Below are positions 5,523-12,089 of a stretch of 39,475 nt of DNA, piece after piece. The notes under the pieces are model-generated. The model had not been told where the DNA came from. It saw only the letters and a program-made list of their open reading frames with translations, and did not search any database. Location: the NCBI GenBank assembly GCA_013360185.1, contig JABWCO010000055.1:1-39475 (forward strand). Direction: 5' to 3'. The DNA is from Bdellovibrio sp. (lineage in GTDB: Bacteria; Bdellovibrionota; Bdellovibrionia; Bdellovibrionales; Bdellovibrionaceae). The translations under genes and the position numbers were made by a program. Position 1 is the first letter of the stretch. Every line of letters begins with the position of its first letter.

Positions 5523-6287
5523 ATGGAAACAAGAAGTGAAGATTTCAAAACATATCTGCAAGAAGAACTGATTCTTCGCTGTAAAAAGAATCCAGCTTAT
5601 TCTTTACGAAGCTTTGCCAAGTCTTTGGGACTTTCCCCGTCTTTCTTAAGTAAGATTTTAAACGGGCAACGTCGCATCACCGATCAAGTTTTTCAAAAAA
5701 TTACGACTCAACTAAATCTGGAACCTCAACTATTTGCGACCTTTCAAGGGGCCTCAACGGATGCATCTGAAGCAGACTTGAGTCTTAAGAATCTTCAGCT
5801 TGAATATTTTAAAATTATCTCTGACTGGTACCACTATGCTTTGATAGAACTTACCAATCTTGAGGGCTTTAAAAACTCCCCCGATTGGATTGCTAACAAG
5901 TTAGGTATTACAGTCAACCAAGCCAAAGCGGCTGTTGATCGCTTGTTGGCGCTTGAGCTTCTGGAAGTAAGAAAAGGCAAACTGCGACCGACCTCTGGTG
6001 GTAACACGACCACAAAAAATGATTTCACGGATCTGGCATTTAAAAAAATGCAGGATGATCTATTAAACAAAGCGCTACACTCGTTGTGGAACGAAGATAT
6101 CGATAAACGCGATCACACATCTATATGCATGGCCATCCACCCGGCTGATATCCCAGAGGTCAAAAAGCGTCTTAAAAAAGCCAGACGCGATATTTGCCAA
6201 TACCTGGAACGCCCTCAAGATACCAAGCCCACTCAAGTTTATAATTTAAGTCTTTCATTTTTTGCATTAAGCAAGGAGTCCGTATGA
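5523..6287 (+). CDS. TIGR02147/DUF4423 family regulator
   Basis: An XRE-like helix-turn-helix (YSLRSFAKSLGLSPSFLSKI and following, about residues 22-55) precedes a DUF4423-type domain with its own winged-helix-like part (WIANKLGITVNQAKAAVDRL). The 254-residue length and the domain order fit TIGR02147, a family best known to me from Bdellovibrio and Fibrobacter. The start at 5523 sits just before the HTH; the frame upstream to 5472 overlaps the inverted-repeat operator. Its stop overlaps the start of the next gene as ATGA (6284-6287), so the regulator and the lipoprotein behind it are translationally coupled. This pairing suggests it controls the lipoprotein gene. Confidence 0.85.
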   Translation: METRSEDFKTYLQEELILRCKKNPAYSLRSFAKSLGLSPSFLSKILNGQRRITDQVFQKITTQLNLEPQLFATFQGASTDASEADLSLKNLQLEYFKIISDWYHYALIELTNLEGFKNSPDWIANKLGITVNQAKAAVDRLLALELLEVRKGKLRPTSGGNTTTKNDFTDLAFKKMQDDLLNKALHSLWNEDIDKRDHTSICMAIHPADIPEVKKRLKKARRDICQYLERPQDTKPTQVYNLSLSFFALSKESV

Positions 6288-7502
6288 AGAACGCCTTAGC
6301 ACTTTTACCTTTCGTTTTATTGCTATCAGCCTGCCAAGAAGGAGGCGGAAACGGCGCCACAACTCTCGGCGCAAGCGCCGGCACTACGAATCCCGCAAGC
6401 AAAGGCACCGTCAGCGATTGGCAATCCTCGTTGCTGGGACAAGAAGGTCATGGTGGTGATGCCCTAGTCTGCTTTAGCATTCTCGTAGACCGCGCGCTTT
6501 ATAAAGTTAACGTGGGCGAATCAAACCAGAACGAAAAAAAACTGCACACCCGGCGAACTTTGCAATGGCAACAGCGGAAGCAGCAGTGGTGTCGTGTGGA
6601 GAATGACCGACGAAGGCAGAAATTCGATTCGCTCAGCAAAACCACTTGAACAATACCTTGCTGAAAAAATCACGAGCAAAAAAATCATCCTCGACCAACT
6701 AAATGCCATGCCGGTGGAAGAAGGCTATCAAAAAGTTTTAAGCTCTTTCACAAATCTTCCAGCCCCGTTTAGTCGCCTTTCAGAAATTCACCACAAGCTT
6801 GGCTGGCTGCACGAAGATGGCATTTCCAGTGAATATGGCCTTATGGACGTGAATGACTCGGGCTTTATCAGTGAAAATGAAATCGACAAAACCTACTGCA
6901 AAGAATTACAAGCAGTGGTTCGCCGGGACCATCAGTTGTGGTACGACGCTGACATTGTAAAGCATTTCGACAACGCCGGAAAAGTTCTGATCCAATTGCA
7001 TGAAGAATTTTACACTTGGGGTAAAGAGCAAGATGAATTCAATGGACGCTATGGCTACACAGCCCACGACACTTCGACCAAAACACGCCGTCTGATCCTT
7101 AAAATTTTAGACGACAAGATCGATCACAAACTTGTAAATGAAAATCTAAAGTCCTTGGGGTTTTCAATCCAGTTCTGGGATAAATCCTTTAACCTGCCAA
7201 CTTCTGCTGGCTATTTCATGGATACGGAATCTTGCATTTTAGAACAGCAATTCCTAAAGAATTATCTTACCGAACGTCGCCATGAAAGGGATTTTGCACT
7301 TGAGACTTCAATCCTGTTTTCGAATCGCTATCTGAATTCAAGTGACGCGAGGGCGCCGCTTGAACTGCGCCATAATTTCCCAACAGCTCTAGCTAACATG
7401 ATCGCACGAACAATCACCGGAAGCTCCAGCAACTTTGCCACCGAAATTATGCAGTTGCAGTCCATATTCGAACGCCCGGAATCATGCCAAGGAAAATTTT
7501 AA
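6284..7502 (+). pseudogene. Lipoprotein gene split by a +1 frameshift at an A8 tract
   Basis: The first frame (6284-6649) encodes a lipoprotein signal (LLLSACQE, lipid-anchored Cys) and a GHGGDALVCF segment. The second frame, open from 6489 to 7502, carries the rest with no start of its own. Eight A residues at 6534-6541 lie where the frames meet: removing one A gives a continuous protein of 405 residues (NQNEK joined to NCTPGELCNG). The C-terminal part contains DVNDSGFISENE (6846-6881), an exact match to the EF-hand calcium-loop pattern. No enzymatic family is recognised. It is coupled to the TIGR02147 regulator by an ATGA overlap. The shift could be a true mutation, polymerase slippage or a sequencing error. 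Confidence 0.7.
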
Positions 7503-8111: not shown

Positions 8112-8753
8112 CTACTTCGAAAACACCGGAATCCCATCAAACATAACGCCTAACAAAACATAAGACCCCGACAAATCAATCGTATTCACATTCGTCGTAA
8201 CAGTCCCCGAGCGAGTCAGACTTTCCACTTTATTACTTTCAAATCCACCCTCTAAAAATAGAAAATACTTTTGGTAACCCACCGCCACAGAGGCGCCAGC
8301 AGCAAAAGTAGGACTTGCGCTGCTTTCAAGAAATCCATCCTGTGTCGCACTCTTTTCAGTATACGTCGTTTTATTTACTCCACCCGCGGCAAAAATATCA
8401 AAATGCACGATGTCTGATTTAAAAAGCGGTACACGGGCCACACCCATCAATCCATCTTGCGAGATTTCTGCTTTATATGCTTGGACCAAGCTGCCTTCCT
8501 GTGAAGTCACATGATGAGTATAGCGCAGCCCCAAGCTTAGATATTGAAAAGTCGGAAAAGTAATTTCAATACCGTATTGATTATTTAAATCGATGTTTTT
8601 AATTCCTTGCGCGGTCAGCTCGGTATTAAGCTCTGTTGGACTGGGCTTCGCAGACCCCAAAAACAAACGCCCTTGTCCCAAACCCATGTCAGCAGCCATT
8701 GCCGTTGGTGCAGTAAAAAGAAATAAGACGCAGATTTTAAAAATAGAATTCAT
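8112..8753 (-). CDS. Small outer-membrane beta-barrel-like protein
   Basis: The product (213 residues) has a signal peptide (FLFTAPTAMAAD, cleavage after AMA) and a mature part rich in alternating hydrophobic/polar strands (YGIEITFPTFQYLSLGLRYT, KYFLFLEGGFESNKV) ending in hydrophobic residues plus FSK. This is the pattern of an eight-strand-type outer-membrane barrel. An upstream GTG at 8759 is an alternative start; ATG 8753 is preferred because GGGGTG lies at good spacing. It is divergent from the MerR-polymerase fusion gene, with 180 bp between. Confidence 0.7.
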   Translation of the reverse strand: MNSIFKICVLFLFTAPTAMAADMGLGQGRLFLGSAKPSPTELNTELTAQGIKNIDLNNQYGIEITFPTFQYLSLGLRYTHHVTSQEGSLVQAYKAEISQDGLMGVARVPLFKSDIVHFDIFAAGGVNKTTYTEKSATQDGFLESSASPTFAAGASVAVGYQKYFLFLEGGFESNKVESLTRSGTVTTNVNTIDLSGSYVLLGVMFDGIPVFSK

Positions 8754-8877
8754 CGCCACACCCCATTATTAAGATGTCCTTATTATATGCCGCTCAAATA
8801 AGTACCTCAATAAAATCGAGGTCTTACGACAAAAGCCCGGATCAGACGCAGCGTCCTCACAAGTTCACTCACCCCTA

Positions 8878-8908
8878 TTGACCTTGCCGTTACGTCAAAG
8901 CCTATGGT
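8878..8908 (+). promoter_or_regulatory. MerR-type promoter and operator (19-bp spacer with dyad)
   Basis: A -35 TTGACC (8878-8883) and a -10 TATGGT (8903-8908) are separated by 19 bp, the over-long spacing typical of MerR-activated promoters. The spacer contains the dyad ACCTTGCCGT-T-ACGTCAAAG (8881-8900), with one mismatch per half in the core. Transcription would start near 8915, giving a short leader with AAGGAA before the ATG at 8933. The obvious activator is the MerR-domain protein encoded directly downstream. Confidence 0.75.
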
Positions 8909-8932
8909 CAATTTATGGGAAGGAATCCAAGA

Positions 8933-10471
8933 ATGCTTTCAATCGGACAATTCGCAAAATCAGCCCACGTTTCTGCGCGCACCGTGCGCTACTACGAGTC
9001 TATTGGTTTATTGCCGAAATCCACACGAGGCGAAAACAACTATCGTTTCTATGATCAAAAAAATTTACCGCTGATGAATCGCATTCGCGATCTGCAAAGT
9101 TTGGGATTTAGTCTTGAAGACATCAAGATCGTCATCCACTTTTCAGAAAACGAATTGCACGCACGTCTGCACAAAAGACTTTTAGAAATAGAACAAGAAG
9201 TTGCTAACCTTGAGGACCGCAAAGAGCGCATTCAAAAACTCCTTTCCGTAGCCAACAAAATCAAAATCGGTGAAGTACTCACCGCCACGGAAAGGGATTT
9301 GTATATGGAGAACATCAAAGAAGAAGTCTTAGCTGGCTTGCACACGCGCTATAGCGAAATCTCGGAAACGGCGCTAGCCTACCTAAAAAGAGACGAGTGG
9401 CTGACAGCTCATCCCAATGTTAGGGACTATCTTGACGGCGTTAAAAAGTGTCTGGAGTTTGCTAAGAAAAATAATCTAAAACTGGGCCCAGCTCGCGGCA
9501 GTGCTTCGGCAAGTCTGTCGCTTTATGGCTTAGGTGTTTCCGGTGTTGATCCCATAAAGCATGAATTGATTCCAGAACGACTTAGTGCACGTCGCCCCTT
9601 TTTTCACATCGATGTCGAATACAGTAAAGGTCAAGAGTTCGTCGACTTTTGCAAAGGTATCAACTCAAAGCTTCCCTATGGTGAAATTCAAGCCTTTAAA
9701 ATGCCATTGCTAGATATCGTGCAAAACGTAAATAAGGCGTTAGACCAAGAAATTGACTTCGATGCCATTGACGACAACTCTGACTTAGTCCTAAATCCGT
9801 TTCGCAATCAAGACTTTGCAAAGATCTTCCAATTCGATTTTTCCCCGGACGCTTTGGTCATGAATTTTGAAAAGTTCGTACCTGAATTTTTAGGTTTAGG
9901 AAAAATCACCGAGCACTTTAATGGACAAAAGGATTTTAGCTTTAGAGACATCATAAACATAACAGCCCTGTGGCGTCCTTACACAAAAGAAATTGTCGAA
10001 CGCATCGAGCTTTACCGCAAAGCCAAAGCAACGAAACCGCATGACTATGGATTTTTAAGTGAAAGAATCAAAACTTACTTAGAACCAAACTATGGCGTGA
10101 TCATTTATCAAGAAGATATTATCCGTATAATTGCAGAATATACGGGTTGGGACTTTGCCCGCAGCAACGCTTTACGACTTGCGTGTAGCAACCACAAAAT
10201 CACCAACCACAAAGAGCAAATTCCCGACTGGAGCGAGTTTCAACGATTAGCCCCAGAATCTGTTGTCGCCTTGGTAGCGGAAGAAAGCAAGTGGGTCTTT
10301 TGTCAGCCTCACGCAATTGCCTTTGCCAAGTTTACCAAGATGACGGCCGTGCTAAAATCACTACACCAGGATTTATATTATCAAGAAATCGCGCGCTTTG
10401 AACAAGCACACGGAGTTTGTTGGGACGATATCGGAATATACTGGAAAGGTGTTTCATTACACCAAAGCTAA
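8933..10471 (+). CDS. MerR HTH fused to a DNA polymerase III alpha-like palm fragment
   Basis: Residues 1-70 are a canonical MerR winged helix (SARTVRYYESIGLLPKS, NNYRFYDQKN), followed by the usual coiled coil (about 75-108). From about 120 the protein follows the C-family replicative polymerase DnaE: GPARGSASASLSLYGLGVSG (185-204) matches its PGRGSAAGS motif, FFHIDV (223-228) its catalytic DxD strand, FLGLGKIT (319-326) its FLGL segment, ALWRPY (345-350) its ALYRPGP, YGVIIYQEDI (387-396) its YGVIVYQE and FCQPHAIAFA (456-465) its FNKSHSAAYA. The first catalytic Asp is His225; Asp227 is kept; the third position appears not to be Asp (Glu318 in the most likely alignment). PHP, beta-clamp and OB parts are absent. 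A dead palm used as a sensing domain is my inference. Start chosen by AAGGAA at 8918. Confidence 0.85.
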   Translation: MLSIGQFAKSAHVSARTVRYYESIGLLPKSTRGENNYRFYDQKNLPLMNRIRDLQSLGFSLEDIKIVIHFSENELHARLHKRLLEIEQEVANLEDRKERIQKLLSVANKIKIGEVLTATERDLYMENIKEEVLAGLHTRYSEISETALAYLKRDEWLTAHPNVRDYLDGVKKCLEFAKKNNLKLGPARGSASASLSLYGLGVSGVDPIKHELIPERLSARRPFFHIDVEYSKGQEFVDFCKGINSKLPYGEIQAFKMPLLDIVQNVNKALDQEIDFDAIDDNSDLVLNPFRNQDFAKIFQFDFSPDALVMNFEKFVPEFLGLGKITEHFNGQKDFSFRDIINITALWRPYTKEIVERIELYRKAKATKPHDYGFLSERIKTYLEPNYGVIIYQEDIIRIIAEYTGWDFARSNALRLACSNHKITNHKEQIPDWSEFQRLAPESVVALVAEESKWVFCQPHAIAFAKFTKMTAVLKSLHQDLYYQEIARFEQAHGVCWDDIGIYWKGVSLHQS

Positions 10472-10477
10472 ATAGTT

Positions 10478-11968
10478 TTACGCTGCCCGAGAGACCTTCA
10501 CTCTCGAAGGTCTCTGCCAAGAAGCTTCTTTAGCATTCGTCGCTTTCGCTTGCCCACGAATCACACGCACCAATTCATGGATCACAGAAGTCATGCTCTG
10601 CGCCTGGGCCGAAAGTTCTTCGGCAGAAGCTGCGGCTTCCTCTGAAGAGGCCGCATTAACTTGTGTAACTTGGTCCATCTGATTCATCGCCTGACTGATT
10701 TGCGCGATGCCGTTGGCCTGCTCACTGCTAGCTGAAGAAATTTCTTGATTTAAGTGAGTCACCTTGGTGACCGAGGCAAGAATCTCGTTAAACACGGCAC
10801 CACTTTTTTCAACTTGCGCACCTCCGGACTCCATTCGTCCGACGCTGGACCTAATTAGGTCCGTGATATCTTTAGCGGCTATAGCACTTCGTTGAGCCAA
10901 GGAACGTACGGCTTCTGCCACCACGGCAAAGCCTTTCCCCTGTTCACCGGCTCGCGCAGCTTCAACGGCGGCGTTAAGAGCTAAAAGATTCGTTTGAAAA
11001 GCGATGTCATCAATCACAGAGATGATTTCAGAAATCTTTTTTGAGTCTTGAGAAATTTCTTTCATTGCCGAAATCAGAACACCCATTTCAGCTTCGCCGC
11101 GGGCAACGACTTGACTGGTGTCCTCAGAAATTTTCGCCGCGTGGCCTGCGTTGTCAGAGTTCATTTTCACCATGGACGTCAACTCCTCGATGGTGGCGAC
11201 AGTTTCTTCAAGAGCCGAGGCTTGTTCTGTGGCAGATTCAGAAAGATTCACGGAAGCTGAGGCAATCTGCTGTGACGCAGAGGTCACTTGTTCAGAGGCC
11301 ATAGCGAGATCTTCAATAATGCCGCCAATAGACTTATTCAAAGAACGAAGAACATAAGTACCGATCGCAAGACCTAACAAAATCGTCACAAGGCTGACCT
11401 CTAAAGTGATCGTCCAGGCATTTGCATAGTCGGCTTCGGCCTCGTGCACTTCGTCTTGCATGTATTTTTCATTACGTGCAATGGTGCTTTCAATCAAGGC
11501 CTCGCAACTTTGTCGAATCGGAGCACCCACTTCTTCCATGTGAGCTCGAGCTTGGTCCTTTTCGCCCTTCGCTGCCAAACCTTTTACTTCGGCGACACTG
11601 GCCCACCATTGATCATAGGTGGATTTGAGTTTTTCCAGTTCCGATCGTCCCAGAGGAGTCGAAATTTCAAAAAGGTCAGCAATCTTTTGATGAAGTTCTT
11701 TATGACGCTTTTCTAGAAGTTCATTTACGTGCGCAGTCTTTGCCGGAGTTTCGGCATCAAGATAGGCGCGTTCGTTCATCAATTGTAAAAACAGAAGTCC
11801 ACGTAAGTCCTTCACCATGGAAACTCGGTCATGCTCCCGTGACATCGAATGGACTGTTTGATTGATACGACTGAGACTGCGTAAGCCCACCCCCGCAATA
11901 ACAAGAGAGCCTGCGATCAACAGGGTCATGATGAGGTACATTTTAAAGCTCAGGCTTCTGTTTTTCAT
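10478..11968 (-). CDS. Methyl-accepting chemotaxis protein
   Basis: The 496-residue receptor has a first membrane helix (about 12-32), a periplasmic four-helix-bundle-type sensor (about 33-185), a second membrane helix (about 188-210) and a cytoplasmic signalling rod. The conserved hairpin tip reads [20 protein letters not shown] and [16 protein letters not shown], the CheA/CheW contact region. A HAMP domain is weak or degenerate after the second helix. No CheR-docking pentapeptide is seen at the C-terminus. ATG 11968 is preferred because GGAG lies nine bases upstream. It is convergent with the MerR fusion gene, only 6 bp apart. The ligand is unknown. Confidence 0.93.
10490..10515. repeat. 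Perfect 10-bp inverted repeat in the 3' end of the MCP gene
   Basis: AGAGACCTTC (10490-10499) pairs with GAAGGTCTCT (10506-10515) around ACTCTC. It lies between the convergent MerR-fusion and MCP genes and inside MCP codons. No T run follows on either strand, so it is not a standard intrinsic terminator. Confidence 0.5.
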
Positions 11969-12089
11969 ATTTGCAATCTCCAGGACTTCCATCTCATTTT
12001 CGGAAACCGGGATAAAAGCTAAAATGAAGATTTCTTGATAAATACAAATATGATTATAAAAGCTTTAAAGACATGCGCACAAAGATTCT

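Follow-up and report, generated by a model that had tools for sequence, protein, structure and literature searches.

Known MerR systems and the fusion locus

MerR regulators that are well known control an effector gene separate from their own, and such a separate target gene or operon is usual in the MerR family, although not universal. BmrR, EcmrR, TipA, SkgA, and BrlR have an N-terminal MerR helix-turn-helix (HTH) and a big C-terminal domain, which in these proteins binds ligands. The over-long spacer of MerR promoters is described as blocking simultaneous contact with the two promoter elements as long as the DNA has not been distorted by the regulator bound to it (PMC9909328, PMC1526738). 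The copA promoter of E. coli K-12, controlled by CueR, consists of TTGACC, 19 bp, and TAACCT with a dyad of 7/10 pairs, and the site described here has the same register. It lies in a window of 39,475 nucleotides of Bdellovibrio sp. DNA (the whole stretch that was analyzed), before a gene that joins a MerR HTH to part of a replicative polymerase:

8878-8883, + strand: -35 element TTGACC, read from the sequence, invariant in 6/6 clade-A orthologs
8881-8901, + strand: predicted MerR-type operator dyad, centered on T8891, 7/10 pairs
8903-8908, + strand: -10 element TATGGT, 19 bp after the -35 element
8914-8916, + strand: expected transcription start, predicted from the position of the -10 element
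8917-8924, + strand: ribosome-binding site GGGAAGGA, similar in orthologs
8933-10471, + strand: fusion gene, 512 amino acids, MerR HTH plus C-family DNA polymerase palm and fingers, open reading frame from ATG 8933
8939-9136, + strand: MerR HTH domain, residues 3-68 (PF13411, E 2.5e-17)
9314-9655, + strand: polymerase palm match, residues 128-241 (PF07733, E 1.2e-11), H225 replacing catalytic D403
9938-10210, + strand: polymerase finger match, residues 336-426 (PF17657, E 5.8e-14)
10310-10312, + strand: codon of H460, equivalent to the E. coli steric-gate H760, H in 20/20 fusions
L030:1553-2638, + strand, genome G007: MerR-Lon substrate-binding-domain fusion (PF02190, E 3.2e-24), with an operator-like site at L030:1501-1521

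The HTH matches two MerR models (PF13411, E 2.5e-17; PF00376, E 6.3e-15). Among MerR models of NCBIfam its best match is CueR, but at 69.8 bits it falls short of the CueR subfamily cut-off of 147.4 bits. Two further differences from the CueR system are that copA is a separate effector gene, whereas here no intact target other than the gene of the regulator itself was found, and that the sensor of the fusion is polymerase-derived. BmrR, EcmrR, TipA, SkgA, and BrlR share the arrangement of the fusion and are among the solved relatives of its HTH, but none of the solved-relative matches spans both the HTH and the polymerase palm and fingers. A literature search covering few subscription papers found, among the papers listed, no description of a MerR-polymerase III fusion, including for Bdellovibrio and for pseudoenzymes, and MerR is absent from the main texts of two surveys of bacterial polymerases (PMC12926913, PMC3919608). 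The promoter is of an ordinary, known MerR type; the single self-target and the polymerase-derived sensor are new.

The promoter and operator

The spacer between TTGACC and TATGGT (8884-8902) is exactly 19 bp, so that direct reading bears out the two elements and the distance given for them in an earlier note on this DNA. The dyad that the note had placed around a central T in the spacer is also present, though imperfect: the arms ACCTTGCCGT (8881-8890) and ACGTCAAAGC (8892-8901) flank T8891, and positions 8881/8901, 8883/8899, and 8887/8895 are unpaired. An operator dyad within a promoter spacer of 19-20 bp, as is characteristic of the MerR family, is therefore found at this locus. A longer perfect repeat, TTGACC...GGTCAA (8878-8883 and 8906-8911), was considered too, but the other five clade-A sequences do not share its right arm, and it was discarded for that reason.

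Sites were scored as the sum of hexamer matches and dyad pairs, with spacers of 19 or 20 bp allowed. The window site scores 16 (-35 match 5, -10 match 4, dyad 7), a value reached by 1/5000 dinucleotide-preserving shuffles of the 160 nt upstream of the ATG, and takes first rank when 577 loose candidates from the two window strands are compared. An ordinary sigma-70 scan with spacers of 16-18 bp does not report the site, because its spacer of 19 bp lies outside that range. When spacers of 14-22 bp were tried, a -10-like hexamer was present in all six clade-A sequences at 19 bp only.

Translation is placed at the conserved ATG 8933, which follows the ribosome-binding site, and the leader would be about 18 nt long with a transcript starting at about 8914-8916. 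ATG 8915 was rejected as a start: the window and L055 have it in frame, but G046, G047, G007, and L020 have ACG in its place. The fusion gene stands alone, since its upstream neighbor (8112-8759) points away and its downstream neighbor (10478-11992) converges. The divergent gene 8112-8759 has an ordinary promoter candidate of its own, a promoter-like TTGAGG and TATAAT with 17-bp spacing at 8782-8810 on the - strand. Elsewhere in the window, two + strand open reading frames overlap in different frames, one at 6284-6649 that begins like a lipoprotein and one at 6594-7502; they may belong to a single frameshifted gene.

Conservation in orthologs and across the phylum

The fusion was found in 15 of 66 genomes in a family search, with 10 of 24 genomes of the genus carrying it, and the resulting 15-row alignment found it in 22 of 368 genomes of the phylum. 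A scan of genome contigs, which is insensitive, gave one full relative, L020, on a contig labeled Bdellovibrionales, in Bdellovibrionota. Clade A comprises six genes: the window gene and those of G046, G047, G007, L020, and G217 (L055). Identity to the window protein is 66% for G046 and for G047, 56% for L020, and 46% for G007. L020 and G302 (L052) have identical protein and upstream DNA and were counted once.

The six clade-A upstream regions were aligned on the -35 element and compared by mean pairwise identity. The 21-bp core TTGACCTTGYCGTTACGTCAA (8878-8898) reaches 0.975, with only one variable base across the six sequences, while the 88 positions upstream of the -35 element stand at 0.283, approximately the random level. 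The -10 element, whose second and sixth bases are A and T in all six, stands at 0.811, and the 19 positions that follow it at 0.656. The distance from the -35 element to the ATG is 55-57 nt in 6/6 genes. The surroundings of the fusion gene differ among these orthologs, the operator having been inherited with the gene. This phylogenetic footprint is taken as the decisive evidence for the predicted promoter.

Outside clade A, the spacing is the more general feature. In one of the 22 genomes found in the phylum, G056 (L007), the sequence begins within the gene, which leaves 21 fusion genes with readable upstream DNA: 18 anchored by a motif, L059 and L061 taken from an unanchored scan, and L060 read by eye. 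In all 21, a -35-like hexamer precedes the start codon by 47-69 nt. In the hexamer that follows it at exactly 19 bp, position 2 is A in 21/21 and position 6 is T in 20/21; in the exception, G057/L008, the T is found at 20 bp. The count of 21/21 is descriptive, because the -35 anchors were picked by motif after the pattern had been seen. With that reading of the count, the association of the MerR layout with the fusion gene claimed in the earlier note is supported, the core being kept in 6/6 clade-A orthologs and the -10 element being placed at 19 bp across the family. In the unanchored scan, 16 of 20 DnaE-fusion genes have their best candidate at the family position; L009 and L010 have none, that of L012 is shifted by 6 nt, and that of L015 is elsewhere. 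Its results are strong in clade A (at most 1/500 shuffles in 6/6) and for L058, and weak or empty outside clade A for L057, L059, L061, L013, L008, L009, and L010. The fusion copy of L060 (G081) has an in-frame TAG and may be broken or misassembled; it keeps the 19-bp promoter layout.

Across fusion classes, operator similarity does not follow similarity of the whole HTH (rho -0.19, equaled or exceeded in 1813/2000 permutations, with several of the 30 operators mis-anchored) or, with corrected anchors, that of the recognition helix (rho -0.23, 1919/2000 permutations at least as high). L007, L059, L060, and L061 were left out of this correlation. K-type helices occur mostly with CC...GG operators and R-type helices mostly with CG...CG; this pattern is post hoc, has exceptions, and is not used as evidence.

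Targets and neighboring genes

A search of six genomes with an operator pattern rigid in form, allowing up to 3 mismatches, gave a perfect match once in five of them, each time before the fusion gene. The sixth, G056, whose fusion copy is without its upstream region, has no perfect match. The single match with 2 mismatches, in G007, precedes the MerR-Lon fusion of L030, which likewise couples a MerR HTH to part of a housekeeping machine and has a TTGACC promoter of its own in front; it differs in its sensor domain and in its hexamer at 19 bp, TTACCT, which lacks A at position 2. With two places that are the operator on the other strand excluded, the nine remaining 3-mismatch places do not exceed the 10 matches of a reversed control pattern. 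The site profile R1, with 150 of 404-922 first-look candidates scored per genome, found the fusion-gene site alone in 5/6 genomes and one further weak match in G046 (E 3.9). By eye, the open reading frames listed for the loci of nine relatives showed no conserved neighbor in the flanks covered, which were about 1.5 kb long (for L020, 3 kb).

A separate target gene or operon was thus sought as a second intact site in the clade-A genomes searched and as a conserved flanking gene, and neither was found. The best-supported target list is the fusion gene itself, because the scans found no other intact site and no conserved neighbor. That the fusion protein targets its own promoter, as had been proposed, is supported by the intact operator occurring only before this gene in the clade-A genomes searched; a genome scan for the dyad, which the note had suggested as a way to the regulon, found no second intact site in those genomes.

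The polymerase-derived domain

Residues 128-241 match the DNA_pol3_alpha model of C-family polymerases, and when 15 fusions and ten polymerases (nine of this phylum plus E. coli DnaE) were compared as profiles, the probability was 99.8 and E 1.1e-27. The same genome has a full-length polymerase match (open frame of 1181 amino acids) and a second strong match (967 amino acids), so the fusion is an extra. An AlphaFold2 model built from two sequences, of low confidence (mean pLDDT 47), has a helix at 72-111, the region after the HTH in which the dimerizing coiled coil of MerR regulators would be expected.

Three catalytic aspartates are described as absolutely conserved across the C family (PMC3919608). 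Residues at the DnaE positions were tallied in 20 fusions, L060 and L007 being left out. D403 is replaced in 20/20 (H in 11, W in 9), D401 is retained in 3/20, and D555 has no aligned residue in 20/20, so that D401, D403, and D555 occur together in none. The fusion protein also differs from DnaE in having no PHP family, the N-terminal feature of the C family, among its Pfam matches. Its likeness to DnaE lies in the profile match over palm and fingers and in the equivalents of R362, G363, E389, D405, E688, and H760, which are retained in 20/20. Others are retained in part: S364 in 6, R390 in 10, R709 in 13, and R710 in 12. The steric-gate residue H760, present in all 20 fusions tallied and corresponding to H460 of the window protein, is modeled in PMC8485763 as contacting the sugar of the incoming dNTP and acting as a steric gate.

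Lost catalytic residues with a kept substrate-contact histidine and GxRG loop fit a ligand-binding pseudo-enzyme. A nucleotide ligand is plausible because catalysis appears to be lost while the substrate-contact histidine and the GxRG loop are retained, and the loss of D403 and D555 with the sugar-contact histidine kept suggests a nucleotide sensor.

Proposed mechanism and alternatives

Layout, conservation, single intact copy, family-wide spacing, and the lack of a conserved partner in the flanks read were computed here. On these grounds 8878-8908 is probably an operator-promoter to which the fusion protein binds with its MerR head, and this protein would activate its own gene on a signal. 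By analogy with the MerR family, the head would bind upstream of its own gene. The 19-bp spacer is proposed to give RNA polymerase poor contact with the -35 and -10 elements, and because of this poor engagement basal transcription would be low. When the polymerase-like C-terminal domain is in its signaling state, the bound protein would distort the spacer and raise its own transcription. Both repression without signal and activation by distortion are expected from the behavior of the family. Because the fusion gene is the only intact target, the proposed result would be a positive feedback switch of one gene. The signal may be a nucleotide or nucleotide analog in the former dNTP pocket, a guess with some support.

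The self-target model has against it that a separate effector gene, as in the well-known MerR regulators, was not found, that operator and HTH similarity are uncorrelated across fusion classes, and that the unanchored scan gave weak or empty results for several members outside clade A. The missing second intact target would suit a simple autorepressor, a protein that merely holds its own level low from the same dyad and has its regulated output through weaker sites elsewhere; that the R1 profile scan scored only part of the candidates leaves room for such sites. Pure autorepression is nevertheless improbable, since repression alone does not need the 19-bp spacer kept in 21/21 genes, and PMC9909328 describes MerR spacers of 19-20 bp as essential for activation. 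That a different MerR protein of the cell, for example a CueR-like one, controls the promoter is suggested by the resemblance of the operator to CueR sites, ACCTTCCC-(5)-TGGAAGGT in PMC1526738, and by the four MerR matches in the genome, one of which is a CueR-like short protein. Such control is very improbable, given that the searched clade-A genomes have an intact site nowhere but in front of the fusion gene, and that the site has been passed on together with this gene in six orthologs with differing surroundings. Least probable is a reading without a MerR operator, in which the block would be an element of the leader RNA or a promoter that is not regulated: some conservation past the -10 element (0.656) speaks for it, but the conserved downstream part is largely the ribosome-binding site, and conservation peaks upstream of the expected start, in copA geometry. 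A self-targeting MerR promoter is therefore the most likely identity of 8878-8908, with ligand-driven activation inferred.

A broader reading is possible but on balance doubtful. It holds that the dead C-family palm and fingers would be the nucleotide (or nucleotide-analog) sensor of a self-only MerR switch, a one-gene feedback sensor of the dNTP pool, and one of a phylum set that joins MerR heads to pieces of housekeeping machines. The pieces would be those of DnaE, the Lon substrate-binding domain, and a third domain without a name, and every such fusion would follow a long-spacer promoter of its own.

Other MerR proteins, distribution, and meaning

MerR proteins of 325-334 amino acids (L018, L019, L101, and L103-L109; nine were aligned) have an unnamed C-terminal domain, and each follows a long-spacer promoter. 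Six of the genomes, G003, G009, G015, G016, G017, and G023, consist of one or two contigs, and in these the gene sits 11.5-13.1 kb into contig 1. By eye the C-terminal domain may resemble Mur ligases; family and structure searches gave no support for this identity. Two shorter MerR proteins, L112 and L114, are likewise behind long-spacer promoters. Because other MerR proteins there also follow such promoters, the self-placed MerR promoter is a habit of the lineage, and the exceptional element among them is the polymerase-derived sensor.

The fusion was found in 0/398 genomes of another phylum, a search that scored only 3 candidates in most genomes and whose empty result, with no positive control behind it, is not evidence of absence. 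Phage and plasmid records held none with one place covering 80% of the fusion protein, and two IMG/VR matches cover the HTH only.

If the proposed reading is true, the promoter would report directly on a regulator that senses with a part derived from the replicative polymerase. The palm of a polymerase would then be re-usable as a sensor, and the promoter would provide a ready reporter for the ligand. The fusion gene as its own only intact target sharpens the question of whether the protein itself acts or uses weak sites.
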